Of a stretch of DNA of 64,000 bases, positions 32,821-61,844 are shown piece by piece. Each line of letters begins with the position of its first letter. Position 1 is the stretch's first letter. The notes beneath the pieces were generated by a model, which saw only the letters and a list, made by a program, of their open reading frames with translations, was not told where the DNA came from and did not search any database. The stretch is taken from contig NZ_KB217478.1 of the NCBI RefSeq assembly GCF_000331305.1, forward strand, positions 2,153,679 to 2,217,678. Reading direction: 5' to 3'. The stretch is from Calothrix sp. PCC 7103. GTDB taxonomy: Bacteria; Cyanobacteriota; Cyanobacteriia; Cyanobacteriales; Nostocaceae. A program made the position numbers and the translations under genes.

Positions 32821-33080
32821 TTAACGAATTAAGTCGAAGGAGATATCTGTTACACCAGTAATATTGCTATTACGATCCATTTCATCGAGCAATGTATTAA
32901 CAACCCAGTTGAGGAGATTTAAGCCACCTTGGTAGCCAAGGGTTGCATAGCGGTGTAAGTGGTGACGGTCAAACAAAGGATAACCAATGCGAACCATAGG
33001 AATTTTGGTGTCACGCCACAAGTACTTACCGTAGGAGTTACCAACGAAGAAGTCAACAGGCTCGGTGAACAACAGTGAAC
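32821..33080 (-). CDS. nifK: Nitrogenase MoFe protein beta subunit, 3' portion
   Basis: The C-terminal 85 or so residues of NifK, beginning S-L-L-FTEPVDFFVGNSYGKYLW and ending ITGVTDISFDLIR, in frame with the 5' part at 61840-63120. The TTG at 33072 would be an artificial start. Ahead of the Ser codon (33078-33076) homology stops and the element begins. Joined, the protein is about 511 aa, the normal NifK length. Confidence 0.95.
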
Positions 33081-33103
33081 CAATGCGCTCACAATCAGGT
33101 AAT
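33074..33103. other. Left attachment site of the nifK element
   Basis: The core AGTGAAC is followed inside the element by AATGCGCT-N4-ATCAGGTAA. The right end carries the inverted counterpart TTACTTGAT-N4-ACACATT before AGGGAAC. Conserved positions AATG-G-T and ATCA-GT-A make a symmetric site around the core once the ends are joined in the circle. Confidence 0.65.
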
Positions 33104-33142
33104 ATTGGTTAATATTAAAATATTCCTCTCCAAGATTGATAT

Positions 33143-34687
33143 ATGGATGTTTGGGCTTACGCGCGCGTATCGACAGACGAACAAGCCGAAGATGAAGGCG
33201 CCTTAATTAAACAAATGCGTCGTTTGCGTACTGCTGGCGCCACCAAGATATATTATGATGTTGAAAGTCGTACCAGCGATAAACGCAAAGGACTTACCCA
33301 GTTAATCGAAGACATTAATGCATTGGTACCAGGAAAAGTCTCAAAACTATTATTTATTAGAATAGACCGTTTAACATCCTCATCAATGACCTTTTATCGT
33401 TTGATGGATGCCTTAAAAAAGAAAAGCATACAGCCAACAGCGATAGATGAACCATTTGATATATCAAGCATAGGTGGAGAATTAACAATAGATGTACGAC
33501 TAGCAGCGAGTAAATATGAGGTAAAAATGTTAGGTATGCGAGTAAAAAAAGAACGAGATACCCGCAAAGCAAATAAAAAACCTCACTGGAATACTCCACT
33601 AGGATATGCAATTGAAAACGACAAATATATAATAGATAACAGCCCTTGTGTTTGTTTAATCGAGACAAAGCAAGAATTAACAAGAGCGCAACTAATGCGA
33701 TTAGTATTCGACACATTCTTAGAAGTAGGCACAGTATCGCAAACCGTGAGAAAATTGCACGATATATTTGGCATTCAAGCCAACGCCACACCAAAAGACA
33801 GCAACAGTAAAATTAACTTATTAACCGAAGAAGACGAAATAGTATTTGAGAATATCAACAAAACCCGTAGTACTAGCTTACGTTATCCCCACACAGGATT
33901 AAAATGGTCTGTATCTGGTTTACGCTCTATATTAGTAAACCCAATTTACGCAGGAGGAACACTCTATGACACAGTAGTTCGTCCCAAAGGACATCGTAAA
34001 CCCTTCGACGAATGGGAAATAGCATGGGGAACCCACACCGATGAATCCATTATTACCCGTGAAGAACACGAACAAATCAAAGCCATAATACGCGGCAACC
34101 GTAATAACCGTTGGGCAAACGAGCAAAAATACACAAACCCATTCGCCAATTTAGTAAAATGCGCTCATTGTGGCGCCGCATATAGTCGTCAGTGTAAAAA
34201 ACTAGTTAAGAAAAAGAACTTCGTCAGACATCACTACCAATGTAGCTTTTATAGAACAGGCGCCTGTACTAACGGACGCATGATATCCTCAGACGAACTA
34301 GAAAAACAAGTTATAAACCACATCATAGTTGAAGCCGAACAACTAGCTACCATAGTCGAACAAGAAGTAACAATAACAGCAGAATCTCCACAAGTAAAAA
34401 CACTTAGAGCATCATTAACCACCCTCGAAGCACTACCATCCAACCCAGCAATAGAAACAGCCAAACAAGACATTAGAATGCAAATAGCAGAAGCAATTGC
34501 AACCACAAACAACAACTCTAAACAATATTTAATAGCCAAAGAACGAGTAACACGTGCCTTTGCCAACCCAAAATATTGGGAAGGACTAGAAACAGAAGAC
34601 AAAAAAACCCTACTACAAGGCTGTGTAAAAAAAATAGTCGTAGATGGCAACCTAGTCACAACAGTTGAACTACTACACCTACATTAA
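33143..34687 (+). CDS. Large serine recombinase of the nifK element
   Basis: A 514-aa enzyme. The resolvase domain has catalytic Ser10 in ARVSTDEQ and the FIRIDRLTSSS motif; the GGELTIDVRLAASKYEVKML block is shared with the hupS-element enzyme. A recombinase domain follows (LVNPIYAGGTLYDTVV), then a zinc ribbon (CAHCGAAYSRQC ... CSFYRTGAC) and a coiled coil. It is XisF/XisH-like. It starts just inside the left end and reads inward. It should act on the core GTTC(A/C)CT as read in nifK. Intact, with a full-length C-terminus. Confidence 0.9.
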   Translation: MDVWAYARVSTDEQAEDEGALIKQMRRLRTAGATKIYYDVESRTSDKRKGLTQLIEDINALVPGKVSKLLFIRIDRLTSSSMTFYRLMDALKKKSIQPTAIDEPFDISSIGGELTIDVRLAASKYEVKMLGMRVKKERDTRKANKKPHWNTPLGYAIENDKYIIDNSPCVCLIETKQELTRAQLMRLVFDTFLEVGTVSQTVRKLHDIFGIQANATPKDSNSKINLLTEEDEIVFENINKTRSTSLRYPHTGLKWSVSGLRSILVNPIYAGGTLYDTVVRPKGHRKPFDEWEIAWGTHTDESIITREEHEQIKAIIRGNRNNRWANEQKYTNPFANLVKCAHCGAAYSRQCKKLVKKKNFVRHHYQCSFYRTGACTNGRMISSDELEKQVINHIIVEAEQLATIVEQEVTITAESPQVKTLRASLTTLEALPSNPAIETAKQDIRMQIAEAIATTNNNSKQYLIAKERVTRAFANPKYWEGLETEDKKTLLQGCVKKIVVDGNLVTTVELLHLH

Positions 34688-34699
34688 ATAGAACATCTT

Positions 34700-34770
34700 A
34701 TCTTGTGGAACAGGCATCCCTGCCTGTCACATATTCAACAGGGCAGGCAAGGATGCCTACCCTACAAGAA
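34700..34770. repeat. Dispersed GGCATCC palindrome downstream of the recombinase
   Basis: CTTGTGGAACAGGCATCC... and GGATGCCTACCCTACAAG form an inverted pair, with an inner GGCAGG repeat. The same family occurs near 18508, 35812 and inside the MITE at 53915-54022. It probably acts as a terminator for the recombinase gene. Confidence 0.6.
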
Positions 34771-34915
34771 AATATTAGCTAATCAACAAATTAGCTAATC
34801 AACAAAAATGATCTAGCATTAGCATATCTATATAAATATAGATATAGCCCATTATGACGCAAATCTAAATTCCATCCGTTCGCAACATGAGAAATAAGTA
34901 CACATGTTTCTTTAT

Positions 34916-35171: not shown

Positions 35172-35710
35172 ATTACAATTTCATTTACTCCCTAATAGGG
35201 ATTGAAACAACAGAGAAAGCTACGGCGCCACCTGAACTAGTCTTACAATTTCATTTACTCCCTAATAGGGATTGAAACTTTTACTGACACTACTATAATA
35301 ATACTGACACAACAATTACAATTTCATTTACTCCCTAATAGGGATTGAAACAGGGGTAACTATATGATAACACACTTTTGAAACAAATTACAATTTCATT
35401 TACTCCCTAATAGGGATTGAAACGCTCCTACATAACCTCCATCTGTTCTATATTCTTCATTACAATTTCATTTACTCCCTAATAGGGATTGAAACAAAGA
35501 ATTGCTCCCAGATTGCAATCAAAAAGTAATTACAATTTCATTTACTCCCTAATAGGGATTGAAACTTCAGTGAAAAAGGTTCCCCCCTACCCTGGCATCC
35601 AAGATTACAATTTCATTTACTCCCTAATAGGGATTGAAACTAACTGATACTCAGCAAACATGGAAGAAACAATATTACAATTTCATTTACTCCCTAATAG
35701 GGATTGAAAC
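35172..35710 (+). CRISPR. CRISPR array 1: 8 repeats, 7 spacers
   Basis: 37-bp repeats beginning ATTACAATTTCATTTACTCC and ending GGGATTGAAAC start at 35172, 35242, 35315, 35387, 35459, 35529, 35604 and 35674. The second copy has C in place of the first A. Spacers are about 33-38 bp. The repeat differs from that of array 2 only in the ATTTCATTT versus ATTTCTCTT segment, so the same Cas6 may process both. The array lies 2 kb upstream of the cas genes, next to the recombinase. Confidence 0.97.
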
Positions 35711-35830
35711 GGTTTTATTATTGTGCCGCGCGTGCTATTTTCATAAAACCCTTGCTATATATAGAATTTTGGAATGTGCAAGTTAGGAGCTAGCTCAAAT
35801 TTGAAACGAGCAAGGATGCCCATTCCACTT

Positions 35831-36667
35831 TTATAGAAAATTTAAGCTTTGAACTTCTTGGACTGTTAATGAAAGAATTTGTGCAATTTGTTCGATGCTC
35901 ATTCCTGTTTGTAGTAGCTGAGATGCTGCGTTTAATCTTGCTTGCCGCTCAGTATCCGCACGTTGCTGTTCGGCATCTGCGCGTTGTTGTTCGGCATTAG
36001 CACGTTGCTGTTCAGCGTCAGCACGTTGTTGTTCAGCGTCAGCACGTTGTTGTTCGGCATCTGCGCGTTGTTGTTCACGTTGGTATAATTCGTCGAGTTC
36101 TACAGGAGTTACAAACTTGCGACCGTCTGGACGATAAATTTCTAGTGTTGTTGGCGCCAACACAAATTTGATTTGCAAACGTGGACTCACCCAATTGTTT
36201 ATATTTTTAATAGGTTTGAGAGTTTTGTTTGAGCGTAACCAGCCTTTTAAAATATTTTTATCTGGGTCATATATATAGTATTCTTCGGCGCCGTATTTTT
36301 GGTAAAAGTCGAACTTGTCGTCCATTTCTTGTTTCCTGTTACCAGGTGACAAGATTTCAAATATTACCTGTGGTGCAATATTATCCTCACGCGCTTGTAC
36401 ATATGAGCCTCTATGACCTTTTGTTCTACCAAATACTACCATTGCATCAGGAGCATATCTTGTATTAATATCGCCTGCAATTGGATACCAAAACAGGTCT
36501 CCAGCGACGAATACATCTGGATTTGATGTAAATAGTATCTCTAAACCTTCTTTGATGATTACAATCCAAATAAACTGTAATGTATTTTGTGCCATCGGTT
36601 CACCGTCGGTTTCTGGGTAAATAACCAAGTCATCGGCGGCATCAAATTCTGTAACTTGTCGTACCAT
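35831..36667 (-). CDS. Uma2-family (DUF820) PD-(D/E)XK protein with heptad repeats
   Basis: The N-terminal domain has the Uma2 nuclease pattern (NTRYAPDAMVVFG, PQVIFEILSPGNRKQE, EYYIYDP). After about residue 190 come six AEQQRAD/AEQQRAN heptads, a highly charged coiled coil, then LLQTGMSIEQIAQILSLTVQ, a small helix-turn-helix-like end. Uma2 genes are abundant in cyanobacteria and their role is not settled. The 21-bp DNA repeats behind the heptads are prone to length change. Confidence 0.8.
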   Translation of the reverse strand: MVRQVTEFDAADDLVIYPETDGEPMAQNTLQFIWIVIIKEGLEILFTSNPDVFVAGDLFWYPIAGDINTRYAPDAMVVFGRTKGHRGSYVQAREDNIAPQVIFEILSPGNRKQEMDDKFDFYQKYGAEEYYIYDPDKNILKGWLRSNKTLKPIKNINNWVSPRLQIKFVLAPTTLEIYRPDGRKFVTPVELDELYQREQQRADAEQQRADAEQQRADAEQQRANAEQQRADAEQQRADTERQARLNAASQLLQTGMSIEQIAQILSLTVQEVQSLNFL

Positions 36668-36834
36668 GTTGCAGCACCTCTAAGCTAAGTGAGGTAGTTA
36701 CCCCCAGTTTAAATCGTAGACGTGGTAGATTTCCACCGCTTTAATAAGTTATAAGGTACTATAAGCAGCTTAAGTACTAGTTAGTCACCTGTGACACATT
36801 TTTAACTGTACATACTTTAAATGTCATAGTACGT

Positions 36835-37713
36835 TCACTTTTCGTTGGTCTCTGTATTGTCCAAATTGTAGTGTTGGTAAAGAGATGTGATTTTGTCGCG
36901 TACAAGCGCGCGCACGTTTTCCGGCGCCATAATTACGCAGTCTGGGGTGTATTGCATAACTTCGCGAATGAACCAGAAGGTGAAAGATACCTGCCTAACT
37001 ACTTGTCGCACGCGCGGTTTATCTTGTAGCCATTGATTTATTTTGTCTTCGGGTTTTGCTTGGTAGGCAAATGCTAAACCTCCAAATAAATGCATTTCTA
37101 CTTCAATTTCTGCTAAACTTGGGCACCATTCACCAGAAACTGACATTACTGCTGCGTCTTGAATGCGGTCTAAACGCAAACACCAATTATGTCTTAATTC
37201 CTCAATATCTTGATTTCCTTCTGTCTCTTCGCACCAACAATCAAGGTATTGACGCTTTTCGTGTGGTGTAACTCTGGCATGACGAACTGTAAAATTCCAT
37301 ACACGTTGTGCTGCATCTTGATAAGAAATTTGAAATGGCTGCTTTTGTTTTATATAGCGGTCAACTGCTAAACGCCATTCTGGTAAGGGATTTCCTAAAA
37401 TGACTTTTATATCATTTCGTAACGGTGTTGATAACTCACTCCGTTCTAAAAGTAACTTTGCGACTTCCTGCGCTTGCTCGTTTTGCCCAATATCTGTCAG
37501 CGCGCGCATAGCTCTATCTAATGCTCGAATGCGGGACTCTGACCAATCATTATTATTGCCGAGAAGAAGCCGGCGCCGTGCTATCGCTTCAACTAACCTA
37601 GATACATTGGGACGCTCACCCCATGTCATCCCAAATTCAAGCGCTAAGTTTTCTAACTCGGCTTTATCACGCTCTGATATAGATAAAGTTATTGATTGAC
37701 CTTTTCGACTCAT
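36835..37713 (-). CDS. WYL-domain transcription regulator of the type I-D locus
   Basis: I start at ATG 37713 (MSRKGQSITLSISERDKAEL), an RHH-like DNA-binding N-terminus; upstream codons in the longer frame are unlikely to be coding. The rest contains a WYL-type sensor domain (QISYQDAAQRVWNFTVRHAR, then CWCEETEG ... LRLDRIQDAAV). WYL regulators are regular partners of cyanobacterial type I-D systems and can repress them. It is divergent from cas3 with repeated TACGGACAC boxes in the 97-bp gap, so autoregulation and cas control are likely. Confidence 0.85.
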   Translation of the reverse strand: MSRKGQSITLSISERDKAELENLALEFGMTWGERPNVSRLVEAIARRRLLLGNNNDWSESRIRALDRAMRALTDIGQNEQAQEVAKLLLERSELSTPLRNDIKVILGNPLPEWRLAVDRYIKQKQPFQISYQDAAQRVWNFTVRHARVTPHEKRQYLDCWCEETEGNQDIEELRHNWCLRLDRIQDAAVMSVSGEWCPSLAEIEVEMHLFGGLAFAYQAKPEDKINQWLQDKPRVRQVVRQVSFTFWFIREVMQYTPDCVIMAPENVRALVRDKITSLYQHYNLDNTETNEK

Positions 37714-37810
37714 ATTTATACGGACACTTTTATACGGATATATCTTGCCAATAACTATTTTGAATGCCAAGATATAAAACAACAAGGAGTTACGGACACT
37801 ATTTAAGCAT
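37714..37810. promoter_or_regulatory. Divergent operator between the WYL regulator and cas3
   Basis: TATACGGACAC (37717-37727), TATACGGATA (37731-37740) and TTACGGACAC (37790-37799) are three similar boxes in a 97-bp bidirectional promoter. Two abut the regulator start and one the cas3 ribosome binding site (ACAAGGAG), as expected for a repressor acting on both genes. Confidence 0.65.
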
Positions 37811-39919
37811 ATGTCCAATTACGAAATTTCGCTTAAGTCAGTTTACTCTCTAACAGCACCAACGCCTGAAGGGTTGAAAGTTCCAAGTATTTTCTCGCTT
37901 CATTGGCATCAAGTCGAGACTTATAAAGCACTGTGCGACCCAGATATAGAAGTAATCATCAATACGGCGCTCACTGGTGATGGTAAGAGTTTGGCGGCTT
38001 TTCTAGCTGCAATGACAAATCGTACTTACACTTTGTCCATGTACCCGACGAATGAACTTGCGCGCGACCAGTTAAAACAAGTACAGGGTTATAAGGACAA
38101 GTTTAAGCCGAAGTATGACCCGCAAATTCAACGGTTGACAGCAGCAATTTTGGAAGAGTATGTAAATACGGGCAAATTGCCGTCTAAACTTGAGGCATTA
38201 GAAAATGTTTCTAGCCAGTTTGAGATTTTACTAACAAACCCCGACCTTTTCCACTACATCCATAATTTTTATTACTTGCGAGGAAAGATTGATAACCCTG
38301 ATAGATTATTTCGCCGCATTGATGAAAAATATAAGTTGTTCGTTTACGATGAATTCCATATATTTTCATCGCCACAGGTTGCAAGCGTAATTAATACAAT
38401 AGTATTGATGAAGCATACTGCAAACAATAAGCGTAAATTTCTCTTTCTGTCTGCGACTCCAAATGAGTTATTAAACGGTTTTTTGGAAAATGCTGGAATT
38501 AAGTATAAAATTATTAACCCAGTTGAAGCAGGCGCCTACAAGTTTGAGTCTAATGGTAATAATGAAGGTTGGCGCCAGATTAGTCAACCGATAAATTTAA
38601 GTTTTCCTCAAGGGCTAGAACCTAACATGCGTTCGAGCTATACTTGGATAGAAGAAAATGCCGAAACGGTAATTTTAAAGTTTTTTCAAGATAACCCAAA
38701 TAGTAAAGGCGCCATTATCCTGAATTCTATTGCCTCTGTCAAAAAATTGCTGCCTAAATTTAAGGCACTGTTTGAACCACGGTGGCAAGTTAGAGAAAAT
38801 ACAGGTTTAACAGGAGAAACCGAAAAATCTAACTCTGTTGCAGAAGCTGATTTATTGCTTGGCACTTCCACTATAGATGTAGGTGTTGACTTTCAAATTA
38901 ACTTCTTGGTTTTTGAAGCTTCGGACGCTGGTAATTTTATTCAGCGCTTTGGTAGACTTGGTAGACACCCAGGTTTTACAACATATCAAGCTTATGCTTT
39001 AATACCAAATTTCTTAGTTGCAAGGCTATTTGAAGATAAATCACATCTTTTAGAAGCGGGTGAAACATATGACAGAATCACTTTCACCCATGCAATTCGA
39101 GATTCTTGGATATTTAGGAATCAGTTTACACGATATCCACAGCGATGGGGTGGTTTACAATCATATTACATCTATAATACACTGAAGAGTAATTCCCATA
39201 TCAAGGATAAGTACTTAGATATTGATAAAAAGTTTGGTACTAGCATCCAAAGAGGTTTAGGAATCAAACTGGAACACATGAAAGCTCAGTACTACCGTTG
39301 TAAAAGCGAAACGAAGGAAAAAATCATTAATGAAGCAAGGAGTTTTCGTGGTAGCAGTCAGTTAGATTGTGCAATCTACGATTTAACAAATCCCTACGAA
39401 CCCGAAGCTGAGAGGTTTAAAATGTATAATCTTACAGGTATTCTCAGCAACTTTGTTTTTGAGTTGTGGGATAAGGACAGTTTTATCGAAAAAGCGAAAG
39501 ACGTAGGGATAAGTACCAAGCGGTTTGACAAAGCTTTGTGCTATTTAAAATTAAGAGACTTTCGTGAAGTTCGGGAAGACTGGTATTTTTACTACCCTGG
39601 CAATATTCGCGAGTTTGCGGCAACTGCAAAAGTTCAACTACTCAAAAATTTAGAAATTTGTCAACCACATGGTTCTGGTATCCAGAAAATAAGCGATGCA
39701 GTCAGTCGAAGAAATCTTGTTTGCTACGTTTGCGACCGAGACAGAAATTTTCTGCGCGCGACTCTTGGACTGCCTATGCACTTACAAATTTATCCTCTCA
39801 CGAATGAACCTGAAGACCGTAAACCATCATACTCAATAGCATTTGGGCAAGATGCGCTTTTACTCGAAACGGTTACTTGGCACTTGAAACCTAAAGACGA
39901 TGAGGGATGGATATGTTAA
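37811..39919 (+). CDS. cas3: Type I-D CRISPR helicase Cas3
   Basis: A 702-aa superfamily-2 helicase without the HD nuclease, as in type I-D where the HD sits on Cas10d. Seen are Walker A TALTGDGKSLAA, motif II YDEFHIF, motif III LSATP, and motif VI QRFGRLGRHPG. It unwinds target DNA for degradation. It is the first gene of the cas operon and is controlled from the divergent WYL promoter. No missing motif. Confidence 0.92.
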   Translation: MSNYEISLKSVYSLTAPTPEGLKVPSIFSLHWHQVETYKALCDPDIEVIINTALTGDGKSLAAFLAAMTNRTYTLSMYPTNELARDQLKQVQGYKDKFKPKYDPQIQRLTAAILEEYVNTGKLPSKLEALENVSSQFEILLTNPDLFHYIHNFYYLRGKIDNPDRLFRRIDEKYKLFVYDEFHIFSSPQVASVINTIVLMKHTANNKRKFLFLSATPNELLNGFLENAGIKYKIINPVEAGAYKFESNGNNEGWRQISQPINLSFPQGLEPNMRSSYTWIEENAETVILKFFQDNPNSKGAIILNSIASVKKLLPKFKALFEPRWQVRENTGLTGETEKSNSVAEADLLLGTSTIDVGVDFQINFLVFEASDAGNFIQRFGRLGRHPGFTTYQAYALIPNFLVARLFEDKSHLLEAGETYDRITFTHAIRDSWIFRNQFTRYPQRWGGLQSYYIYNTLKSNSHIKDKYLDIDKKFGTSIQRGLGIKLEHMKAQYYRCKSETKEKIINEARSFRGSSQLDCAIYDLTNPYEPEAERFKMYNLTGILSNFVFELWDKDSFIEKAKDVGISTKRFDKALCYLKLRDFREVREDWYFYYPGNIREFAATAKVQLLKNLEICQPHGSGIQKISDAVSRRNLVCYVCDRDRNFLRATLGLPMHLQIYPLTNEPEDRKPSYSIAFGQDALLLETVTWHLKPKDDEGWIC

Positions 39920-40272: not shown

Positions 40273-43200
40273 GTGAATATAGAACTCGCAAGTGAATTAG
40301 AAAATACTTTTGATGACGACTTACCGGAAGAAGTCGCTGATTTTGATGGTGATGATGACAATGATGATTCAGAGGCGCCTGTCAAGCGAGTATTACTAAT
40401 AATTCGCTTGTTTAAGGAAGCTATCAAAAAAGCGCAGGGTAATCAACACGATAAAATTATTGAGAAGTTCGCAGAGTTTGTTCTGCCTAATTTAATCCAA
40501 CAACTTGCAGGTGCCACTGCGAAAGGTGGTAAGTTTTTTGAAGTTACAATTGAAAAAATCAATGCTAAACGCGCGACAGAGGGTAAAAAACCAGTTCGTC
40601 GAGATAACGCAGGAGACCAGTCTGTACTTGCACACCTGCTAAACGGGTTTCTTCCTACCTACCGAATTTTAAAGCGACTATTGCAAGATGATTTGGAAAC
40701 TACCCCGGTGCGTCGTAGTTGTGAAGAGTTGCAAATCTGTATATTTATAGTTTGTTATTTACTCCATGACTATGAAAAATTCCCTGATTATCTAGAATGG
40801 TTAATCGCTAATGATAAAGATAATCAATTTAAGGATAGAGACTGGGAGTTGGAACCACTCAAAAAAGAAGATGCTCCTAATTTAGGACGTGATTATGTAA
40901 CCAAGAAGATTTTAGATTTTGGTTTACAGCACTTACTTGATAACGACTGGGGCCTGCTAATAGATGATATTATTTTCATTAGCAGCAATTCTGGTGTTAA
41001 GAATGACTCTGATTTAGGTCTTGTCACTCGTGGTTTAAAGCTTCTAGAAGATGAACGACTTGATGACAGGATTCGACAGAACTTAATTGACCTTGTTTCA
41101 CTTGCTGATTGTTTCGCATCTATTATCAAGCATCCTAGAGACATAGAGAATGGGCGCCTGCCGCTTTTACTTGGTCGATTAAGCAATCATCAGTTAAAAT
41201 TTACATATCATTCGCTATCAGAAAATCGCGGTGTTTTGACGAATATTCTCAATAATGTCTTAATTGAAGCGCATCCAGAAGAATTTTATACACCCCTGCT
41301 TTATTTACCCGATGGTGTCGTTTACTTGGCAACTTCCAATGCACCTGCGGTTGAGACGAAAGATATATCAGAAAAAGTTGTGAGTAAAATCAAAAGTCTT
41401 TGTGCAGAGAAACTTCGACAAAGACAAACAGGTTTTAACCGTGATGGCAAAGGATTGAAGTTTGCTGAGTACTACTGGTTATTTTTTGATGTAGTTGGAT
41501 TGATGGAAGTTAGTGTTGATGCTGCTTGTAGATTGCTTCCTGATTCTAAAACTGCTTCGAGTGGTAAACGTAGTGATAGCTTGAAAAATTATCAAGCACA
41601 AGGTGAATTACCTGCTAGTCTCAATTTAGAATTGAAGAATGAAATTCGTGCTGACCGTTTAGCTGAGTTTGGGGACATTATTTGTCGAGGTATATGGGAT
41701 GATTGGTGTGAGAGAGTTGCACAATCACAAAAGCAACTACCAAAAGCACAGCGAAAGAATCTTCCAAACTTGGATTTAACCGAAAAGCTGGCAGAGTTTT
41801 TAGGGTTAGCAGCAGAAATTCCCGCTATCAAACAAATTCAATCATTAAAGAAAACTGGTGGTGTTCCTTTAGATTGGTATTATCTGGCATCAGTATATTT
41901 CAGTAATCATCCTGGTAAGGATTTTACGCAAGTTCTCGAAGTTATGAAAGCAATGGTTAATCATGCTGCTAGTTTGATTCAACCAATTTTATTAGAGTTT
42001 CAAGATATACCTGATGGCTGGAATGATTTACGCACTTATGTTAACCGTGTAATTACTTTACCAACAGGTGCAGTAGTGGCGCCGGAAACTGAGCCATTTA
42101 TACTAGAGTTACAGCGTTATAATTCAGCTAAAGTAACTGGTAGAGGTCGAGAAAATGTATGCGCGATGTCGAGTTCTAGTTACACCGTAACAGAACAGAT
42201 GGAATCAGCCACACTATTTGCACCGCAAGTCTACAGTAATAGACAGATTTTATTTAATGTTCAAGCTGCAAAGCGTCAAATCTGTGCTATTTGGTCGATT
42301 GAAATTATGTTGCGACAAATTTTAATGAACCAAACTAATGCAGTGGGTGGAGATTTTGAAAGTCGTAAATATCGTTATTTATATCTCTACCCTGCTTATT
42401 TCTTCACACCCGAAACAAATAAGTTTTTACAGCTTGTTTATAATCAGTTTGCTAGAACGCGATTTGACGCAGAACTACGTAAGCATTTTATTACCGAGAA
42501 TCAAGTTGCTGACCTTAGTATTCAAAACTATCAACGAGTCGATAGCTTATTAATTAAGGAAGATTTACAACCAGACGATGACCGAACTTTTAAAATTAGC
42601 TTTCCTGAAAAAGAAACGTTGACATTTTTCTTTTTAGGTTTACCTCCAGGACGCGAACCAACAGATACTGAATCTTGGGTGGCGCCTGCATGGTTAGCTT
42701 TTAGTTTACCATTAATAATGGATATCAAAGTAGTTGCTTCTGAATCACCTGTACCACCTTTTTTAAGCGGCGCCGATTTTGAAGAAACAGTATTATTAGA
42801 TGGGACACATCAAGCAATTCGGAGTTTGATTAAAAAAGATAACTATCGCCTCGATAGTATTTTACCTTATTCGTCGCACAAACACGAATTTTCACCTTTA
42901 AATGCACTCACCGCAGCATATGCTATACATTTGGAAGCTAATCGTAAAAAAGATGGAGATCCAGATTGGGGAAAACTAGCAGATTTTGCCAGAGATATAG
43001 AAACAAATCCTTTATATGTTTTCCACTACCTGAATAAATGGCTAAGAAAACAAGACAAAATCGAATCTGTCCCAACTGTAAAAATTCGTCTTTACGAAAG
43101 TTTGTATTACTACTTTGAACCAACAGGAGAACGCATGAATCAATTACGAAAATTAACAGAATTATATCGACGCTTTTACCGCGCGAAAAGTTCTTACGCA

Positions 43201-48034: not shown

Positions 48035-48319
48035 ATGAAACTCACCAAAAACGTAGTTATTTCATACGACATTTCCGAAGATAACCGTCGCACCAAAATC
48101 CATAAAATTCTCAAATCATACGGACAGTGGGTACAATACAGCGTCTTCGAGTGTCAGCTTACCGATACTCAGTATGCCAAACTGCGTGCGCGGTTAAGCA
48201 AACTAATAAAACCAGACACCGACAGCATTCGCTTCTACTTCTTATGTGCCTGCTGTTTCGGTAAAATAGAACGTATTGGTGGTGAACCAGTCCGCGACGA
48301 CTCAATTTTCTTTGCTTAA
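48035..48319 (+). CDS. cas2: CRISPR adaptation protein Cas2
   Basis: A 94-aa ferredoxin-fold protein: VVISYDISEDNRRTKIHKIL with the conserved Asp, then GQWVQYSVFECQLTDTQY, and SIRFYFLCACC. It forms the Cas1-Cas2 integrase. Last gene of the operon, 10 bp after cas1, followed by repeats and the leader of array 2. Confidence 0.95.
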   Translation: MKLTKNVVISYDISEDNRRTKIHKILKSYGQWVQYSVFECQLTDTQYAKLRARLSKLIKPDTDSIRFYFLCACCFGKIERIGGEPVRDDSIFFA

Positions 48320-52558: not shown

Positions 52559-53386
52559 ATGCCTCACAGTTTAGTTCTCAACCTACTACCTCAATCAAGC
52601 ATCTATCCACAATTTTTAACTGGTAGACATTATCATGCTTTATTTCTCAACCTTGTTAGTTCGGTAGATAAGAGTTTAGGCGCTATTCTTCATGATACAA
52701 CGACAGATAAAGCTTTTACGCTTTCCCCGATACAAATACACCGTAGACAACCAGCACTTAAAAACAATATTCTACAATGGCAGCACCAAGAACCTATACT
52801 ACCTGAGACACCTTGCTGGTGGCGCCTGTCTTTACTTGATGACACTTTATTTGGTAAGCTCACACAGCTTTGGTTAAACATAAATCCTGAAAAAGCTTGG
52901 CATTTAGGTTCTGCTGACTTGTTTATTACTAGCATCCAAGTCACACCTCAGTCAAACCAACCTTGGGCAAACGCCTGTACTTATACCCAGCTATTTGAAC
53001 AAGCAAGTGGCGCCGAACGAAGCATCAACTTTACATTTGCCACGCCTACAGCTTTTCGGCAAGGAAACTTCGATACAGCATTACCCAGTAAAGAATCAGT
53101 ATTCAAAAGTTTACTACAGCGCTGGAACAAATATAGTGGCATAGAAATATCGCCTGAAATAATAGATTGCATTTTTCCCAGCTTTTTCAACATCCGCACA
53201 GAAATAGCGAGTGACTCCCGCAGTAAATTCATAGGTTGTGTTGGGCAGGTAAGCTATAAAATTATGGGAGAAGTCGAACCAGAAGTCATTAAACAAATTA
53301 ACGCCATAGCTGATTTTGCTATGTACGCAGGAGTCGGAAGGAAAACACCAATGGGAATGGGAATGGTACGCAGGCAAACTAACTAG
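52559..53386 (+). CDS. cas6: Second Cas6 (paralogue) next to array 3
   Basis: A 275-aa close paralogue of the Cas6 at 45559: the N-termini MPHSLVLNLLPQSSIYPQFL and MPYSLVLNLLPQSPIYPNFL correspond, as do WWRLSLLDDTLFGKL and the glycine loop GVGRKTPMGMGM. It stands alone, without other cas genes, 280 bp before array 3, whose repeat differs from arrays 1 and 2. It probably specialises in that repeat. Intact reading frame. Confidence 0.88.
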   Translation: MPHSLVLNLLPQSSIYPQFLTGRHYHALFLNLVSSVDKSLGAILHDTTTDKAFTLSPIQIHRRQPALKNNILQWQHQEPILPETPCWWRLSLLDDTLFGKLTQLWLNINPEKAWHLGSADLFITSIQVTPQSNQPWANACTYTQLFEQASGAERSINFTFATPTAFRQGNFDTALPSKESVFKSLLQRWNKYSGIEISPEIIDCIFPSFFNIRTEIASDSRSKFIGCVGQVSYKIMGEVEPEVIKQINAIADFAMYAGVGRKTPMGMGMVRRQTN

Positions 53387-53664: not shown

Positions 53665-54040
53665 ATTGCAATTTCTAATAATCCCTTTAAGGGATTGAAA
53701 CATAGAAGAAATGATAGAAATAGTATCTTGATAAATATCAGGAGAATTGCAATTTCTAATAATCCCTTTAAGGAATTGAAACCTAAATTATGTAGAGAAA
53801 TTTTATAAAAAGCACAAATTGCAATTTATAATAATCCCTGAAAGGTATTGAAACAGGCTAATGTAGCCCAAATTAGGCTAATTTTGGATTGCAATTTCTA
53901 ATAATCCTTTTAGCGACTTCCAAATAAAAAAATCTCCAAAATTTTCTTGTGGAGAGGTGCCAATACTTGGAACGGGCAAGGATGCCCATTCCACAAGATG
54001 GAGAATTAAATTTTTGGAAGTCCCTTAAGGGATTGAAATA
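53665..54040 (+). CRISPR. CRISPR array 3: decaying, 4 repeats, last one split
   Basis: 37-bp repeats begin ATTGCAATTTCTAATAATCC and end GGGATTGAAAC. Copies are at 53665 (consensus), 53746 (one change near the end), 53818 (several changes) and 53888. The last is interrupted by a 108-bp MITE and resumes at about 54023 (CCTTAAGGGATTGAAAT). Three spacers, the first 44 bp. Progressive degeneration towards the distal end is typical of an inactive array. Confidence 0.88.
53915..54022. mobile_element. MITE inserted in the terminal repeat of array 3
   Basis: The 10-bp terminal inverted repeats GACTTCCAAA (53915-53924) and TTTGGAAGTC (54013-54022) enclose 88 bp. Inside, CTTGTGGA and TCCACAAG and the GGGCAAGGATGCCC palindrome form nested hairpins. 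Flanks CCTTTTA and CCTTAA could be the duplicated target within the CRISPR repeat. No transposase is encoded. Confidence 0.7.
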
Positions 54041-54043
54041 TTT

Positions 54044-55681
54044 TCAATTTTCAAATACACAATCTGGTGTAAAATCAGGGGAGTCAAAATAGTACCTGCC
54101 TTCAGCTTTTAATATACGTTCAAAAAGCTGTGGAATACTTGTTGCTATGACCTTAGTATTTTCAATTGAGAAAATAACATGTTCTCTGGAAAACATATCT
54201 TTTTCATCTGATGTGATGGGTGTACTAATAACAACCCACCATTCTGCCCACTTTTTCAATGTTCCATCTTCTTGACTACCAGATTTTCTACGCTGATATT
54301 TATAGGCAAGGCAGCGACCGTCTTTTAAATTAGCAAATTGATAAAAACTCATATTATCTGTATCTATAATTTCATCAACATAAACATAGTCACGTAATGG
54401 TCGAATAAACCAAGGATGTTCGCTATTTGCAAAAAGAGTTCCACCGTCAAATTGCTCAAGCATTTGAAATATTTCTTTGGGCATTTCTTCAACAAATTTA
54501 CTCTGAGACCAATCAACAGCAGGTTGTAAATTGTGCTTTGCTTCTTGTGAATTTTTAAAAGTATTTAAAATCTGAGTAAATTTATTCTCTCTAACTGCCC
54601 AACCAATTTCTGGGTATAAGCAACCATTTTCTTGCTTTTGACATACACCAACGAAACCTGCTATTAGTTCTAATTCTTTTTTGTTTTTGTCTGTTTCTAA
54701 AGTAAAAGAAACTTGTGAAAGACCACCTGGTAATGACTCTGGTCTCACAGCTTGATCTACACTACCAAAAAAGGTGTGTATGGGGGTATTCGTAAACATC
54801 GGATTTTTAACTGTGTAAGTATTGGTAACAGTGTCTTCTACATAGGGAAATAAATAACCTAGCCACCCAGTTATTAGCTCTGTGGCATACATTTGTTTTG
54901 GTTTGTAAATCGATTGCCAAAAGTTTATATCTGGTTTGCCTTTAATGGTGTCTATAAATTTATCGCAGATGGGTAATACTTTTGTTGTCCACCAACTTAA
55001 ATCATATTCTGCTATCAACTCAACGCGCGCGCGAATTTTGCGCCAATCGTCTTCGGTTCCTTGTAAAGTAATCCAGGGAATACCACAAACACAAACAGCC
55101 CGAAAATCAAAAAAGCAGCGAAAAGCATCCATTATTACTATTTGGCTTGCTGTACGTATTGTAGGAGTTGTGGTGCTAAAATCGCATTGCATTAACGAGT
55201 AAATATCAGGGTTTATATATTCACCCATCAAAAAAGCCCATTGTTTTACAACTTCTGCCCAATGTGATGATGTATTAAGTTCTTCTATTGTTGCTTTTAA
55301 TGAGAGTTTACCTGAGTGAGCAACTAAAGATTGACGTAATTGTTCAGCGTTGTTATTCACATGCATTGCAAATCCCTGAGCAATTGTCATCCAGATAGCA
55401 TCAGGAGTCAATAGCAAAGGACGGTGTTCGCTAAATGACATGTGAACGGCATTAAAAAGTGGATGCAAGTAAACTGCATCAATTAAGCCACTATTAGATG
55501 ATGGCTGAACTACCTTGAATGTGTCACTATGGCTAAATCCTATTAGGGGTGTATCAACTCGTTCTTCTAGTTGCGTTTTAGCAGTTTGTACAGGTAAGGG
55601 GCTTTCGCATATTTCCAAGTCTTCTACTTGAAAGCTGATTTCGCTTGAAGTTTGATTGAGGATTAACGCGATTTTATCCAT
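54044..55681 (-). CDS. DUF4419 protein, 545 aa
   Basis: Recognisable by HPLFNAVHMSFSEHRPLLLT, PDAIWMTIAQGFAMHVNNNA, IVIMDAFRCFFDF and GIPWITLQGTEDDWRKIR. The family is known from fungi and scattered bacteria without an established function. The C-terminal half (about 300-545) is not recognised. Its gene abuts the split CRISPR repeat, which lies just beyond its stop codon. Probably a transferred cargo gene; it is transcribed alone or with the GNAT gene upstream (21 bp). Confidence 0.75.
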   Translation of the reverse strand: MDKIALILNQTSSEISFQVEDLEICESPLPVQTAKTQLEERVDTPLIGFSHSDTFKVVQPSSNSGLIDAVYLHPLFNAVHMSFSEHRPLLLTPDAIWMTIAQGFAMHVNNNAEQLRQSLVAHSGKLSLKATIEELNTSSHWAEVVKQWAFLMGEYINPDIYSLMQCDFSTTTPTIRTASQIVIMDAFRCFFDFRAVCVCGIPWITLQGTEDDWRKIRARVELIAEYDLSWWTTKVLPICDKFIDTIKGKPDINFWQSIYKPKQMYATELITGWLGYLFPYVEDTVTNTYTVKNPMFTNTPIHTFFGSVDQAVRPESLPGGLSQVSFTLETDKNKKELELIAGFVGVCQKQENGCLYPEIGWAVRENKFTQILNTFKNSQEAKHNLQPAVDWSQSKFVEEMPKEIFQMLEQFDGGTLFANSEHPWFIRPLRDYVYVDEIIDTDNMSFYQFANLKDGRCLAYKYQRRKSGSQEDGTLKKWAEWWVVISTPITSDEKDMFSREHVIFSIENTKVIATSIPQLFERILKAEGRYYFDSPDFTPDCVFEN

Positions 55682-55702: not shown

Positions 55703-56218
55703 TCATTTAATTTGCAGAAGCATGTACTCTATATCAAAGTATTGATTATTAAATTTATACGCCATTTTTTCGATTCCGTATATTTTAAAGCCAAATGATA
55801 GATACAATTGTTTTGCTGGTAAATTATTTGTTACGACATCGAGTAATAGTATTTCTATCTCGTTAGTAGCTTTTGCTTTTTCAATTAGTTCATTGAGTAG
55901 TAATTCACCTATACCTTGGCGCCGATATTCTGGTTTGACGTACATACTACGTATGTATGCTTTATGCTTTGTTTTTATTCTGGATTCTTGATGAAATTTT
56001 ATTATTCCAATTATTTTTTTATCGTCGTAGCAGCCTAAAATAAAGTTATTATCTACTGGTATTTTATCTCTAAAGTCATGTATTGTCTTGGTTGCTTCTT
56101 CTTGATACGTTGTGCCATATGAGTCTGGATTATTATATAAGGCTTCTAATCTGATTTGACGGTAATCTTCTCCATCGTGTTTTGTTAGTTTTTTTATTAT
56201 CATTTGGTTAAATGCCAA
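55703..56218 (-). CDS. GNAT-family N-acetyltransferase
   Basis: A 171-aa acetyltransferase: acetyl-CoA loop VKPEYRRQGIGELLLNELIE, the preceding strand KAYIRSMY, and the C-terminal LPAKQLYLSFGFKIYGIEK (motif B). The substrate is unknown. It lies 21 bp upstream of the DUF4419 gene on the same strand, likely co-transcribed. Confidence 0.85.
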   Translation of the reverse strand: MAFNQMIIKKLTKHDGEDYRQIRLEALYNNPDSYGTTYQEEATKTIHDFRDKIPVDNNFILGCYDDKKIIGIIKFHQESRIKTKHKAYIRSMYVKPEYRRQGIGELLLNELIEKAKATNEIEILLLDVVTNNLPAKQLYLSFGFKIYGIEKMAYKFNNQYFDIEYMLLQIK

Positions 56219-57082: not shown

Positions 57083-57472
57083 ATGGCAAAGTCAAATGGG
57101 GCTAAAAGCGAAACATCTACTGTGGAGTCTGAGGTTTCAGATGCAGAAGACCTGGCACCTGTTAAAGATTCGTCTGAACTAGTAGAGGGCGCCCAAGATA
57201 TTGGCGCCCAAGATATTGACGAAATATTAAACTCGCTAAAAGCTTTACTGAGTGCGTTAGAAAAACTCCAAAAAGCTCGACTAGAAGTAGGCGATATTAA
57301 ACCTTTAATTGGACGAATGCTCGATGGAGAACTGCTGGAAGGGGAAGAACTTGAGCAACTTAAGTCAGGTGTAAATGGTCTTTCTCGCCTTGTTCGTACT
57401 TATACTGACCACCAAGCGGCACTTACTAAAGCACAACCTGCAAGACAACTACTAGATCAAGTTATTAAATAG
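57083..57472 (+). CDS. Hypothetical acidic protein, 129 aa
   Basis: AGAGGGAAGCATTA precedes the ATG at 57083. The N-terminal 45 residues are acidic and disordered, with a duplicated GAQDI unit encoded by a tandem GGCGCCCAAGATATTG repeat. The rest is helical (ILNSLKALLSALEKLQKARL, LSRLVRTYTDHQAALTK). No family recognised. It is followed by a GC-rich hairpin and then the EF-G gene. Confidence 0.55.
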   Translation: MAKSNGAKSETSTVESEVSDAEDLAPVKDSSELVEGAQDIGAQDIDEILNSLKALLSALEKLQKARLEVGDIKPLIGRMLDGELLEGEELEQLKSGVNGLSRLVRTYTDHQAALTKAQPARQLLDQVIK

Positions 57473-57478: not shown

Positions 57479-57522
57479 GATCCCCCAACCCCCCCCGAAG
57501 AGAGCGGCGGGCTAGGGGGATC
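57479..57522 (+). terminator. GC-rich hairpin after the 129-aa gene
   Basis: GATCCCCC (57479-57486) pairs with GGGGGATC (57515-57522), 6 bp after the stop codon. No long T-run follows, so it may be a repeat-derived terminator. Confidence 0.6.
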
Positions 57523-57809: not shown

Positions 57810-59900
57810 ATGAAAGACCTCACTCGTTATCGGAATATCGGTATCTTCGCCCACGTAGACGCTGGTAAAACCACCACAACAGAAAGAATCCTGAAGCTGA
57901 CAGGAAAAATCCACAAAATTGGTGAGGTGCATGAAGGTGCGGCGACGACCGACTTCATGGAACAAGAACAAGAGCGAGGCATTACGATTCAATCTGCTGC
58001 AACCACCTGTTTTTGGAACGACCACCAATTCAATATTATTGATACCCCTGGACACGTTGACTTTACAATTGAAGTTTACCGTTCGCTGAAAGTGCTTGAT
58101 GGTGGTGTCGGTGTATTTTGCGCTAGTGGTGGTGTAGAACCTCAATCTGAAACCAACTGGCGTTATGCCAATGACTCTAAGGTCGCTCGCGTCGTTTACA
58201 TTAACAAACTTGACCGTATTGGCGCCGATTTTTACCGAGTTGTTAAGCAAATTAATGATGTCCTAGCAGCGAAACCGTTGGTGATGGTACTACCAATTGG
58301 TACAGAGAACGATTTTGTAGGCGTGGTAGATTTATTAACCCGTAAAGCATGGGTATGGGATGATTCCGGCGACCCAATGAACTATGAAATCAAAGAAGTT
58401 CCCGCCGAAATGAAAGATGACGTCGAAAAGTACCGCGAGATGCTGATTGAAACAGCTGTCGAGCAAGACGACACATTGATGGAAAAATATTTAGAAGGCG
58501 AAGAACTTTCCATCGACGAAATTAAGCATTGTATTCGTAAGGGCACTATCAATCTGTCCTTCTTCCCCACCTATTGCGGTTCTTCGTTTAAAAACAAAGG
58601 TGTGCAGTTAGTACTCGATGCTGTTGTTGACTACTTGCCCAACCCAACTGAAGTAAAACCACAACCAGAAGTAGATTTAGAAGGTAACGAAACTGGCGAA
58701 TTTGCTATTGTTGACCCAACGAAACCGTTGCGTGCATTAGCATTTAAAATTATGGATGACCGTTTCGGCGCCCTCACCTTTACCCGCCTTTACTCCGGTG
58801 TATTAAATAAGGGTGATACAATTCTCAATACCGCAACAGGTAAAACCGAACGTATTAGCCGTTTGGTTGAGATGCACGCTAACGACCGTCAAGAAATTGA
58901 TTCCGCTCAAGCTGGGGACATTGTAGCTATTGTAGGGATGAAAAACGTCCAAACCGGACATACTCTTTGTGACCCCAAAGCTCCTGCAACCTTAGAACCA
59001 ATGGTCTTCCCAGAGCCAGTTATTTCCATCTCGGTGACACCTACTAAGAAAGGTACCTCCGAAAAAATGGGGATTGCACTTGGTAAAATGGTACAGGAAG
59101 ACCCATCATTCCGCGTCGAAACTGATTCCGAAAGTGGCGAAACCATCATTAAAGGGATGGGTGAGTTACATTTGGATATTAAAGTTGATATTCTCAGACG
59201 TACCCACGGTGTTGAAGTCGAAGTTGGTAAACCTCAAGTTGCTTACCGTGAGTCTGTTACTAAGCGCGTTGAAGATGGCTATGTCCACAAGAAACAATCT
59301 GGTGGTTCTGGTCAATACGCTAAAATCGATTACATTGTTGAACCTGGTGAACCTGGTAGTGGTTTCCAATTTGAGACCAAGGTAACTGGTGGTAGCGTAC
59401 CTAGAGAATACTGGCCCGCAGTTCAAAAAGGTTTTGCGAGCAGTATCGATAAAGGTGTGTTAGCAGGATTCCCTTGTGTCGATTTGAAATTTACCTTGGT
59501 TGATGGTGGTTTCCACCCTGTTGACTCATCAGCAATTGCTTTTGAAATCGCTGCTAAAGCTGCTTATCGTCAAACCTTGCCTAAAGCTTCTCCTCAGTTG
59601 CTTGAACCCATTATGAAAGTCGATGTGTTTACACCTGAAGATTATATGGGTGATGCAATTGGTGACTTAAACCGTCGTCGTGGACTCATTAAATCGCAAG
59701 AAACAGGCCCTACTGGCGCCCGTATTAAAGCGGATGTACCATTGAGCGAAATGTTTGGTTACATTGGCGATCTACGAACCATGACTTCCGGTCGTGGTCA
59801 GTTTTCTATGGAATTTTCTCATTACGCACCATGTCCTGCAAACGTAGCAGAGACCGTAATTAAGGAAACCAAAGAACGCGAAGCTGCTGCTGCGAAATAG
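57810..59900 (+). CDS. Translation elongation factor G paralogue
   Basis: A 696-aa translational GTPase: G1 [12 protein letters not shown] (near 14-25), switch-[14 protein letters not shown], and the EF-G domains to the end ([20 protein letters not shown]). The N-terminus [20 protein letters not shown] differs from canonical cyanobacterial FusA (which begins MART-PLE), and it is not next to rpsL, rpsG or tuf. It is therefore the second-type EF-G that many cyanobacteria carry. Its place inside an excision element is odd for a translation factor and means heterocysts would lose this copy from the chromosome. Confidence 0.85.
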
Positions 59901-59974
59901 TAAAGAAACCAGGTTTATAGGCGGAAAATTTTCTGTTCCAATTGAACCGATTTAGTACTTACACATAGAATAAT

Positions 59975-60008
59975 AGAAGCCCGGTTTATTGGTAATAACC
60001 GGGCTTCT
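59975..60008 (+). terminator. Hairpin after the EF-G gene
   Basis: AGAAGCCCGGTT (59975-59986) pairs perfectly with 59997-60008 around a 10-base loop, followed by GTTTG. It belongs to the dispersed AGAAACC-GGTTTCT repeat family and can act as a terminator just ahead of the KAP gene. Confidence 0.65.
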
Positions 60009-60030
60009 GTTTGTAAATTCTAAAAGTGTT

Positions 60031-61776
60031 ATGACCGATACAACCGATATTAACGATATATCAACAGATAGCTCCTTAATCGATCCAGAAAATGACTTGC
60101 TAGGTCATGCGAGCTTTGCGAAGTATCTAGCAGACAGCATTTGCGAAATGACCTTTCCTGAAGGTTTCATAATTGGTATTTACGGTTCTTGGAACTCTGG
60201 CAAATCAACACTATTAAACTTTATAGGTCATTATCTTCAGCAAAAGTCAGAGGACGAGCAACCAATTATTGTTCCTTTTAATCCCTGGCTATTTTCTGGA
60301 CATCAGAATATTGTAAGGCGCTTTTTTGAGCAATTACAAAATGTTTTAAGCAAAGAAAAAGCCGTGCCAAGAGGTATAAGAAAGACAATAGCTGATTTCG
60401 CCGGAATTATTTCAGAAATTCCTTTACCTTATGCTCAAACTGGCAAGGCATTAGTAACATTATTAGATGATAAAGAAAAGGAAGCTTCGCAATTTAAAGA
60501 AGAAGTAGAAAAGACGCTGGCAAAACAGGATAGACGCATAGTTATAACAGTTGATGATATAGATAGGTTGCCTGGTGAGGATATTAAGCAGTTATTTCGC
60601 ATTTTTAAAGCTATTCCGAATTTTTCTAACGTTGTTTATGTTTTAGCTTTTAATAAAGAAGCTGTAATCGAAACAATTACAGAAACCGATACAGTATCCA
60701 AAGAATCATACTTGCAACAAATTATTCAAGCAGAGTTTGAGTTACCTACTCCAAGTAAGACCTTACTTCGCAAGCTATTTTTTAAAAAACTTAATAGAGT
60801 ATTTACTGACATACCAAAAGAACAATTTAATCAAACACGTTGGAGTAGTATTTACTTCCAAGGAATAGACCATTTTATTAATAACATACCCGGCATTACT
60901 CGTTTAACTAACACTTTAACAGTTACATATTCAGCAGTAAAAGGCGAAGTGAATCCAATTGATTTTATTGCTATCGAGTGTTTGCGAATCTTTTGCCCAG
61001 CCATATATGACATAATCTACCAAAATCCTTATGCTTTCGCAGGTGAGGTTAACACTTCCACAGACGAATTGAAAAATTTACTTAATACCTGGATTGCTCA
61101 ACTACCCCCCAAAGATAAGCAACCTGTACAAAATCTCCTCATGCAGCTTTTTCCAAAATTAAAAGCTGTTTGGAGTAATAGCTCTGCTGATGAGAAAGAG
61201 TCTGAATGGCATAAGCAAATGCGTGTGTGTAGTTTAGAAATATTTCCAATCTACTTCCGTCTAGCGTTGTCAGCATATGAATTATCTAACACTCAAATAA
61301 AAGCTATGCTTGCTTTAGCTTACGATACAGAAAGGTTTAAAGAACATTTAATAGAACTTGTTAAGCAAAAACGTACTGAAGGCATCGCACAAACTAGCAT
61401 TTTTTTAGAACAGCTTGAAAGCACCGCTCAAGAAATTCCTGTAAATGCCATTGCCTCGGTTGTGGAAGCTTTATTTGATGCCAGCGAAGAATTCTTGTTG
61501 GGTCAAGAAGATGAGTATAATAATGACATTTTCGATTTGAGCAACGAAGTTATAGTTAGTCGTTATATCTCACAACTGTTGCGTCGAATTGAAGAACCAC
61601 AACGATTTGAATTGTTAAAAACAGCAATTAGTCAAGCTAAAGCATTACCAATAATTAATCAACAAATAGCAACAGTAAAAGAACAGCAAATTCAGTCTAG
61701 TTCCGAGCAGGACTCAAATGAGGAAAGCCTACTGAACGCAGAACACCTCGAAGAACTAGAACAAATAGTCGCTTGA
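60031..61776 (+). CDS. KAP-family P-loop NTPase
   Basis: The start is ATG 60031 (MTDTTDINDISTDSSLIDPE); the frame is open from 59989 but that part lies in a hairpin. The 581-aa protein has Walker A GIYGSWNSGKSTLL, the VPFNPWLFSGHQN segment, and Walker B VITVDDIDRL, all KAP hallmarks. KAP NTPases occur in antiphage systems and mobile elements, often membrane-associated; no clear membrane helix is visible here. It is the last cargo gene before the right end of the element. Confidence 0.85.
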   Translation: MTDTTDINDISTDSSLIDPENDLLGHASFAKYLADSICEMTFPEGFIIGIYGSWNSGKSTLLNFIGHYLQQKSEDEQPIIVPFNPWLFSGHQNIVRRFFEQLQNVLSKEKAVPRGIRKTIADFAGIISEIPLPYAQTGKALVTLLDDKEKEASQFKEEVEKTLAKQDRRIVITVDDIDRLPGEDIKQLFRIFKAIPNFSNVVYVLAFNKEAVIETITETDTVSKESYLQQIIQAEFELPTPSKTLLRKLFFKKLNRVFTDIPKEQFNQTRWSSIYFQGIDHFINNIPGITRLTNTLTVTYSAVKGEVNPIDFIAIECLRIFCPAIYDIIYQNPYAFAGEVNTSTDELKNLLNTWIAQLPPKDKQPVQNLLMQLFPKLKAVWSNSSADEKESEWHKQMRVCSLEIFPIYFRLALSAYELSNTQIKAMLALAYDTERFKEHLIELVKQKRTEGIAQTSIFLEQLESTAQEIPVNAIASVVEALFDASEEFLLGQEDEYNNDIFDLSNEVIVSRYISQLLRRIEEPQRFELLKTAISQAKALPIINQQIATVKEQQIQSSSEQDSNEESLLNAEHLEELEQIVA

Positions 61777-61782
61777 TAGTAT

Positions 61783-61815
61783 GTAGGTTGCGTGGAGGAA
61801 CGGAACCCAACATAA
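61783..61815. repeat. Dispersed GTAGGTTG-hairpin at the element end
   Basis: TGTAGGTTGCGTGGAGGAACGGAACCCAACATAA is the same family as in 32612-32645 and near 45485. It lies just inside the right attachment site and may terminate transcription leaving the element. Confidence 0.55.
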
Positions 61816-61844
61816 GTAACTTGATACCCAACACATTAGGGAAC
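61815..61844. other. Right attachment site of the nifK element
   Basis: The core AGGGAAC (61838-61844) is preceded inside the element by TAACTTGAT-N4-AACACATT, the inverted counterpart of the left arm. The core differs from the left copy at one base, and the crossover falls within an Arg-Ser-Leu codon stretch of nifK. Confidence 0.65.

Follow-up and report, generated by a model that had tools for sequence, protein, structure and literature searches.

Elements that interrupt nifK and carry an XisF-like recombinase have already been described. Eight of them in two variants were known to Hilton et al. (2016, PMC4874684), whose main text also reports an EF-G paralogue in the nifK element of Calothrix PCC 7103 and in that of C. 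desertica PCC 7102. The terms CRISPR and defense and the stem immun- have no occurrence in that main text. A strain with excision elements and a plasmid-borne type I-D CRISPR-Cas system is on record, the two being reported separately in the accessible text (PMC3542288), and in the open-licence literature, as far as its accessible text extends, we found no report of CRISPR inside an interruption element. Here we analyse a 64,000-nucleotide stretch of Calothrix sp. PCC 7103 (the window; C7:2153679–2217678 of genome G000, which has 11.58 Mb in 12 contigs). We found that nifK is interrupted in this stretch by an element containing a complete type I-D system, and we consider it likely that this is an XisF-class element resident in nifK of this Calothrix clade. 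At the core of its defence cargo there would be a CRISPR-Cas locus that can be exchanged, of type I-D in this strain.

The nifK interruption and its recombinase

The split in nifK falls at GAAC, a 4-bp core present at 33077–33080 and again at 61841–61844, which gives an element of 28,764 bp. The features of the two borders are as follows.

~32824..33080, - strand: C-terminal part (second half) of nifK, found by tblastn with the G001 nifK, 100% identity, residues 428–512
33077..33102, + strand: attachment site by the nifK C-half, GAAC core and element-side arm CAATGCGCTCACAATCAGGTAA; arms alike in 9 genomes
33143..34687, + strand: xisF-type large serine recombinase, NCBIfam NF041201, 524.9 bits (cut-off 375)
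61819..61844, - strand: attachment site by the nifK N-half, GTTC core (GAAC on the + strand) and element-side arm CCTAATGTGTTGGGTATCAAGT
61839..63120, - strand: N-terminal 427 codons (first half) of nifK, the sole match of such strength in the genome

Removal of the 28,764 bp in silico yields an intact nifK of 511 codons, whose product is 95.9% identical to the uninterrupted NifK of the related genome G001 and spans all of its 512 residues. The rejoined frame encodes 511–512 residues in each of nine genomes tested, and the seven rejoined proteins that we compared all align along the entire 512 residues of the G001 protein. The gene is thus split and its halves rejoin in frame at direct repeats, as in an interruption element of the XisF type. 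The genome search gave one nifK and four other matches of just 26–28% identity, and a second functional nifK was rejected on this ground. The halves are oppositely oriented in three genomes (L091 (G009), L099 and L110), which suggests site-specific inversion or misassembly.

The CCTAATGTGTTGGGTATCAAGT arm repeats the CAATGCGCTCACAATCAGGTAA arm imperfectly and in inverted orientation, the approximate form being TAATGYGYTnGnTATCARG. The arm-to-arm match in G000 is 12/22, a moderate result that was equalled in 19 of 5000 shuffles. The resemblance is clearly above shuffles in G003, G004, G017, G018 and G027 (0 to 12 of 5000, with 0 in both G017 and G027), weak in G005 (116/5000) and G006 (260/5000), and not significant in G002 (532/5000). 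Core and arms are alike across the nine genomes compared, and the sequence deeper inside the element differs. A matching empty site, GTGAACAACAGTGAACG..GTGCCACA with the GAAC included, is present in the uninterrupted nifK of G021 (L064).

The recombinase gene lies at the edge of the element, its start codon 62 bp inward of the core. Among 33 loci with close XisF relatives in named genomes, 32 have the nifK C-half, and in 29 it lies 54–208 bp upstream of xisF; it lies elsewhere in L104, L116 and L117, and L124 is cut off. This XisF group therefore belongs to the nifK site. Judged by XisF, the close relatives of G000 are named strains of Calothrix and Dulcicalothrix, and every one of the seven genus genomes, G000 included, has XisH-family genes. 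Near xisF a scan gave 12 promoter-like sites, where 8.6 were expected (sd 3.3), and 3 terminator-like sites, where 2.9 were expected.

The type I-D locus and its counterparts in relatives

The interior of the G000 element includes the following features.

35172..35711, + strand: CRISPR array 1, 8 repeats ATTACAATTTCATTTACTCCCTAATAGGGATTGAAAC
36835..37818, - strand: WYL/WCX-type regulator, weak (Pfam WCX 24.0 bits, cut-off 23.9; PADLOC WYL 37.7 bits)
37811..39919, + strand: cas3' (type I-D helicase), TIGR03158, 289.5 bits
39959..40231, + strand: DUF433 open reading frame (ORF) between cas3' and cas10d
40273..43632, + strand: cas10d/csc3, TIGR03174, 637.6 bits
43616..44704, + strand: csc2/cas7d, TIGR03157, 336.5 bits
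44710..45459, + strand: csc1/cas5d, TIGR03159, 239.3 bits
45460..46377, + strand: cas6, first copy, TIGR01877, 82.3 bits
46423..47010, + strand: cas4, TIGR00372, 164.2 bits
47023..48024, + strand: cas1d, TIGR04093, 436.1 bits (cut-off 385)
48035..48319, + strand: cas2, TIGR01573, 71.3 bits
48775..51129, + strand: CRISPR array 2, 33 repeats ATTACAATTTCTCTTACTCCCTAATAGGGATTGAAAC
52559..53386, + strand: second cas6
53665..53854, + strand: CRISPR array 3, 3 repeats, degenerate or decaying (Rfam CRISPR-DR5)

The eight genes cas3', cas10d, csc2, csc1, cas6, cas4, cas1d and cas2 all score above their NCBIfam cut-offs, and the twelve ORFs checked for internal stops, among them these cas genes and xisF, have none. 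The signature genes of type I-D (cas10d, csc2, csc1 and the I-D cas3') are intact, and the adaptation module and arrays are present. In type I-D systems the HD nuclease sits in Cas10d and not in Cas3, and an HD dipeptide (YLLHDYEKF) occurs in the G000 Cas10d. All 41 exact genome copies of the 21-nt core of the main repeat lie inside the nifK element, so the I-D system looks self-contained there. The second cas6 is 94–99% identical in G002, G004 (as a shorter ORF), G005 and G006, and its nearest relative in G003 is 74% identical and adjoins cas4. Relatives of the WYL/WCX-type regulator are present in all six elements of the genus, at 37–98% identity.

The original prediction, of a complete type I-D system within a nifK element, is borne out by the NCBIfam matches, the GAAC borders and the frame-perfect rejoining. 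The genes that it listed (cas3, cas10d, csc2, csc1, cas6, cas4, cas1, cas2 and the WYL regulator) and the three arrays do lie between the half-sites, the regulator being a weak match and the third array degenerate. Beyond that list we found the second cas6, the DUF433 ORF, YhcG and Uma2 nucleases, an EF-G paralogue and a PifA-like KAP NTPase.

The element is present in six of the seven genus genomes, G001 being the one with an uninterrupted nifK; the six elements span 28.1 to 64.6 kb and all have the same borders. A CRISPR-Cas locus sits at the corresponding place in each of the six, representing three I-D lineages and one I-B. G000, G004 and G006 have one I-D locus in common (cas proteins 95–99%), G002 carries a divergent I-D locus (cas10d 47%), a third I-D lineage occupies the element of G005 (PADLOC Cas10_Id, 1657 bits), and G003 carries type I-B (Cas8b, 1032 bits). 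When compared with G000, the aligned DNA of the frame is 82–97% identical in G002 and G005 and 80–89% in G003, whereas the aligned cas parts of these three genomes are 66–75% identical and the rest is unalignable. Between G002 and G005 the identity is 87% ahead of the effector block and 93% in the cas4-cas1-cas2 part that follows the block; the stretch between yields one match only, of 410 bp (74%). We read these patterns as cassettes exchanged in place, which takes three changes or more, one of them nested in another. The six elements hold 294 spacers, none of them in common even where Cas1 is 98–99% identical, and the disjoint spacers suggest recent independent adaptation of the six elements.

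Excision, immunity and rival readings

What the sequence shows directly is the borders and their rejoining, the recombinase gene, the completeness of the I-D system, a shared site in relatives, the differing cas loci and the disjoint spacers. Excision in heterocysts should follow by homology to the elements described in the main text of PMC4874684. By analogy with these, the element would stay in nifK in vegetative cells, with the I-D system working from the chromosome; in a differentiating heterocyst, XisF would recombine the two GAAC cores and restore nifK, and the I-D system would leave on a 28.8-kb circle. As heterocysts do not divide, the circle would be undiluted by division, and immunity would be moved rather than deleted. 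I-D expression on the circle may fall, and CRISPR genes elsewhere in the genome would stay. The consequence for the cell type probably arises as a by-product: defence genes are well housed in the element, whose imprecise loss would destroy nifK. By the G000 coordinates, the circle would also put the EF-G paralogue and the PifA-like NTPase 130 bp upstream of xisF and co-directional with it, so that the KAP-xisF order would be peculiar to the excised form.

The element has to be excised before nifK can be read through. A cell that fixes nitrogen should therefore carry the I-D locus off its chromosome, and with just one nifK found in the genome this part of the predicted effect on heterocysts is supported. 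The accompanying statement, that the terminal cell drops its adaptive immunity, is too strong: outside the element, G000 has three further cas1 loci and nine RAMP-family matches, the latter presumably type III, and the I-D system was rejected as the sole immune system of the strain for this reason. The element of G006 holds that genome's sole cas1 match, yet RAMP-family genes are present elsewhere in the genome. That the cell types of a filament differ in immune repertoire by programmed rearrangement, with heterocysts holding the nifK-borne CRISPR-Cas only on the circle and its expression falling or changing, is a tentative proposition that we hold to be rather unlikely.

Several results weigh against the favoured reading of a resident XisF-class element with an exchangeable, working CRISPR-Cas core. 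The cas1 of G005 lies in two ORFs, and adaptation may be lost there because of this split. Fast array turnover could give the same spacer picture as independent adaptation. No protospacer was established when 21-nt pieces of three spacers were scanned against a viral collection: two spacers gave nothing, and the third matched four near-identical contigs, a candidate phage target that we took as chance, as the last 15 of the 36 positions hold 13 mismatches. Nor did the circle junction give more in the viral collection than a single pattern match, to an unrelated AT-rich phage, which we attribute to chance. Outside the clade, cas1 lies inside none of nine elements whose two ends stand in direct orientation on the same contig (G017, G018, G027, G060, G065, G067, G068, G080 and G086); for the last six of these, the identity of the contig was confirmed from its length. 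For that count 28 loci were given and 27 genomes searched, L104 being left out; it excludes G009, G061 and G071, which have an inverted half, and genomes with their ends on different or unmatched contigs, and systems without cas1 would escape it. G069, G074 and G076, also left out of the element count, have no cas1 match at all. CRISPR is thus not a general feature of nifK elements. Targeting between elements was rejected as well: when the 294 spacers were searched in 126 sequences, namely the window and 125 loci, the matches besides an array's own copy were all at chance level, with 15–19 nt.

The identical order of I-D genes (WYL-cas3-DUF433-cas10d...cas2) recurs in G008 (L131), a genome without an intact close XisF match. 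Type I-D is also found on many cyanobacterial plasmids, with csc1 73% identical on Anabaena 90 and Dolichospermum plasmids. The lack of cas1 in the nine outside elements, together with the I-D loci of G008 and the plasmids, indicates that CRISPR was probably recruited within this clade into a pre-existing element. At the same nifK site, the element of Cyanomargarita calcarea (G018, L085–L086) carries the Dpd genes DpdE, DpdH and DpdJ, a different defence cargo.

The strongest competitor of the by-product view is selected immune partitioning, in which CRISPR is kept in the element since its loss or down-regulation in heterocysts is useful (for example by sparing a terminal cell autoimmunity or cost) and dividing vegetative cells keep it. 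The presence of a CRISPR-Cas locus at this place in all six clade elements, although four different loci occupy the place, speaks for such selection, as does a protein of the Anabaena nifD element that went undetected in heterocysts according to the accessible part of PMC1079853. However, the three cas1 loci and the RAMP-family genes elsewhere in G000, and the RAMP-family genes elsewhere in G006, speak against it, and the PifA-like NTPase and the nucleases point to a general defence cargo. We therefore regard partitioning as unlikely.

An inert element, which no longer excises and leaves nifK a relic and the CRISPR locus simply chromosomal, is improbable. Long-kept laboratory strains can lose heterocyst function, yet in six genus genomes the rejoined nifK is intact and 94–96% identical to an uninterrupted nifK, the attachment arms are conserved beside unlike interior sequence, and xisF is open.

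The claim that the immune system is made horizontally mobile through a nif site fares worse. A vehicle that moves between strains through nifK and spreads CRISPR-Cas could draw on the serine recombinase and att-like sites and on the empty GAAC site of uninterrupted nifK. On the other hand, XisF distance tracks nifE distance (Mantel r 0.65, reached by 0 of 2000 permutations, for the 20 of 34 sequences in which nifE and XisF were both long enough), so an old resident fits better than a recent arrival; as the coefficient is 0.65 and not 1, some transfer is possible. No close XisF relative was found in the viral collection, the best-ranked plasmid match is 26.6% identical, and no transfer genes occur among the 20 element ORFs scanned with Pfam (23 were called). 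The change that is visible is that of the cas cassette inside, and we consider movement of the whole element very improbable. Lastly, an assembly or binning artefact, an error that the original prediction had itself raised, has nothing in its favour and a negligible probability, the same borders recurring in the six element-bearing genomes of the genus (in two cases on contigs >11 Mb), five of which are other than G000 and carry a CRISPR-Cas locus as well, which likewise rules out chance.

A resident nifK element with an exchangeable CRISPR-Cas core links the adaptive immunity of a bacterium with a DNA rearrangement that is programmed in development. It raises a testable question, namely whether a terminally differentiated bacterial cell has a CRISPR repertoire unlike that of its dividing siblings, and it offers a possible reason for the persistence of such elements: with defence genes aboard, careless deletion breaks nitrogenase. 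With its six strains, the series amounts to a natural experiment on how CRISPR types are exchanged at one fixed locus.

Further cargo and known systems

The remaining cargo of the G000 element, completed by a few uncharacterised ORFs, is listed below, with its occurrence in the six genus elements.

35831..36667, - strand: Uma2-family putative nuclease, weak PADLOC candidate PDC-S03, 43 bits; 5 of 6 elements
51557..52525, + strand: YhcG/DUF1016 nuclease, PADLOC candidate PDC-S02, 464 bits; 4 of 6 elements
54044..55681, - strand: DUF4419 protein, unmatched in the other elements compared
55703..56218, - strand: GNAT acetyltransferase; 5 of 6 elements
57083..57472, + strand: 129-residue protein without a Pfam match; 6 of 6 elements
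57810..59900, + strand: EF-G paralogue, 97–100% identical; 6 of 6 elements
59989..61776, + strand: KAP P-loop NTPase, PifA-like (Pfam KAP_NTPase; PADLOC PifA, 287.5 bits); 6 of 6 elements (82–94%)

The KAP NTPase lies within ~0.3 kb of the border with the nifK N-half in five of the six elements, the exception being G004. The 20 Pfam-scanned ORFs include no prophage structural genes or transfer genes, and a prophage or conjugative element was rejected. A CRISPR-associated transposon (CAST) combines Tn7-like transposition genes with a Cas effector that lacks cleavage; this class was rejected too, as no Tn7 genes occur in the scanned ORFs and cas3' and cas1-cas2 are present. The 64.6-kb element of Dulcicalothrix desertica (G004, L076–L078) has extra cargo, including PD-T4-6 kinase-like and tetratricopeptide repeat (TPR) matches. 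A protein of 1,043 residues is common to the elements of G004, G002 and G003 and is a mere remnant in the G000 window.

The EF-G paralogue is conserved among the elements to about the same degree as nifK. G001, which has no nifK element, has the same EF-G paralogue (93%; L126 13308–15398 and L127). Its neighbours there look ordinary (RtcB, methyltransferases, transporters), a divergent type I-D locus is ~7 kb away, and there is no XisF match in 38 kb, other recombinases not having been looked for. This context fits poorly with a published suggestion that the paralogue may be confined to interruption elements.

Two further gene sets of the window may be interrupted. The C-terminal end of nifD stops near 63440, with unlike sequence beyond (window 63295–64000), and a third interruption element may begin at the window edge in this gene. 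The hydrogenase small-subunit and large-subunit ORFs are ~15 kb apart (window 1168–2043, 11823–18453), with a serine recombinase (15486–16865) and a DUF3987/primase protein (11823–15152) between them, and the hup genes probably host another interruption element.

When set beside known systems, the chromosomal and plasmid type I-D loci (Anabaena sp. 90 plasmid B, Dolichospermum, Stanieria and Synechocystis) have the same gene set by annotation; unlike these, the G000 locus sits in a developmental interruption element. The fdxN element of Anabaena 7120 has a recombinase of the same family, XisF, and XisH-family genes occur in G000 too, but its target gene and its core are different ones. The core of the fdxN element is TATTC. 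The cyp110 gene on the nifD element of Anabaena 7120 is likewise cargo of a nif element, with its protein present in vegetative cells and undetected in heterocysts in the accessible part of PMC1079853, but it is a metabolic gene whereas the G000 cargo is an immune system. The SP-beta prophage in spsM of Bacillus is a further case in which developmental excision restores a host gene, as told in the accessible text of PMC4191935, although it is a prophage and acts in sporulation. The closest relatives remain the nifK elements of Hilton et al., which have the interrupted nifK, the XisF-like serine recombinase and the EF-G paralogue; no description of differing CRISPR-Cas types within a single common frame was found in the accessible text of PMC4874684. 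These three traits of nifK elements are already known, and what is apparently new, as judged from the accessible text of the literature, is a CRISPR-Cas system inside such an element.

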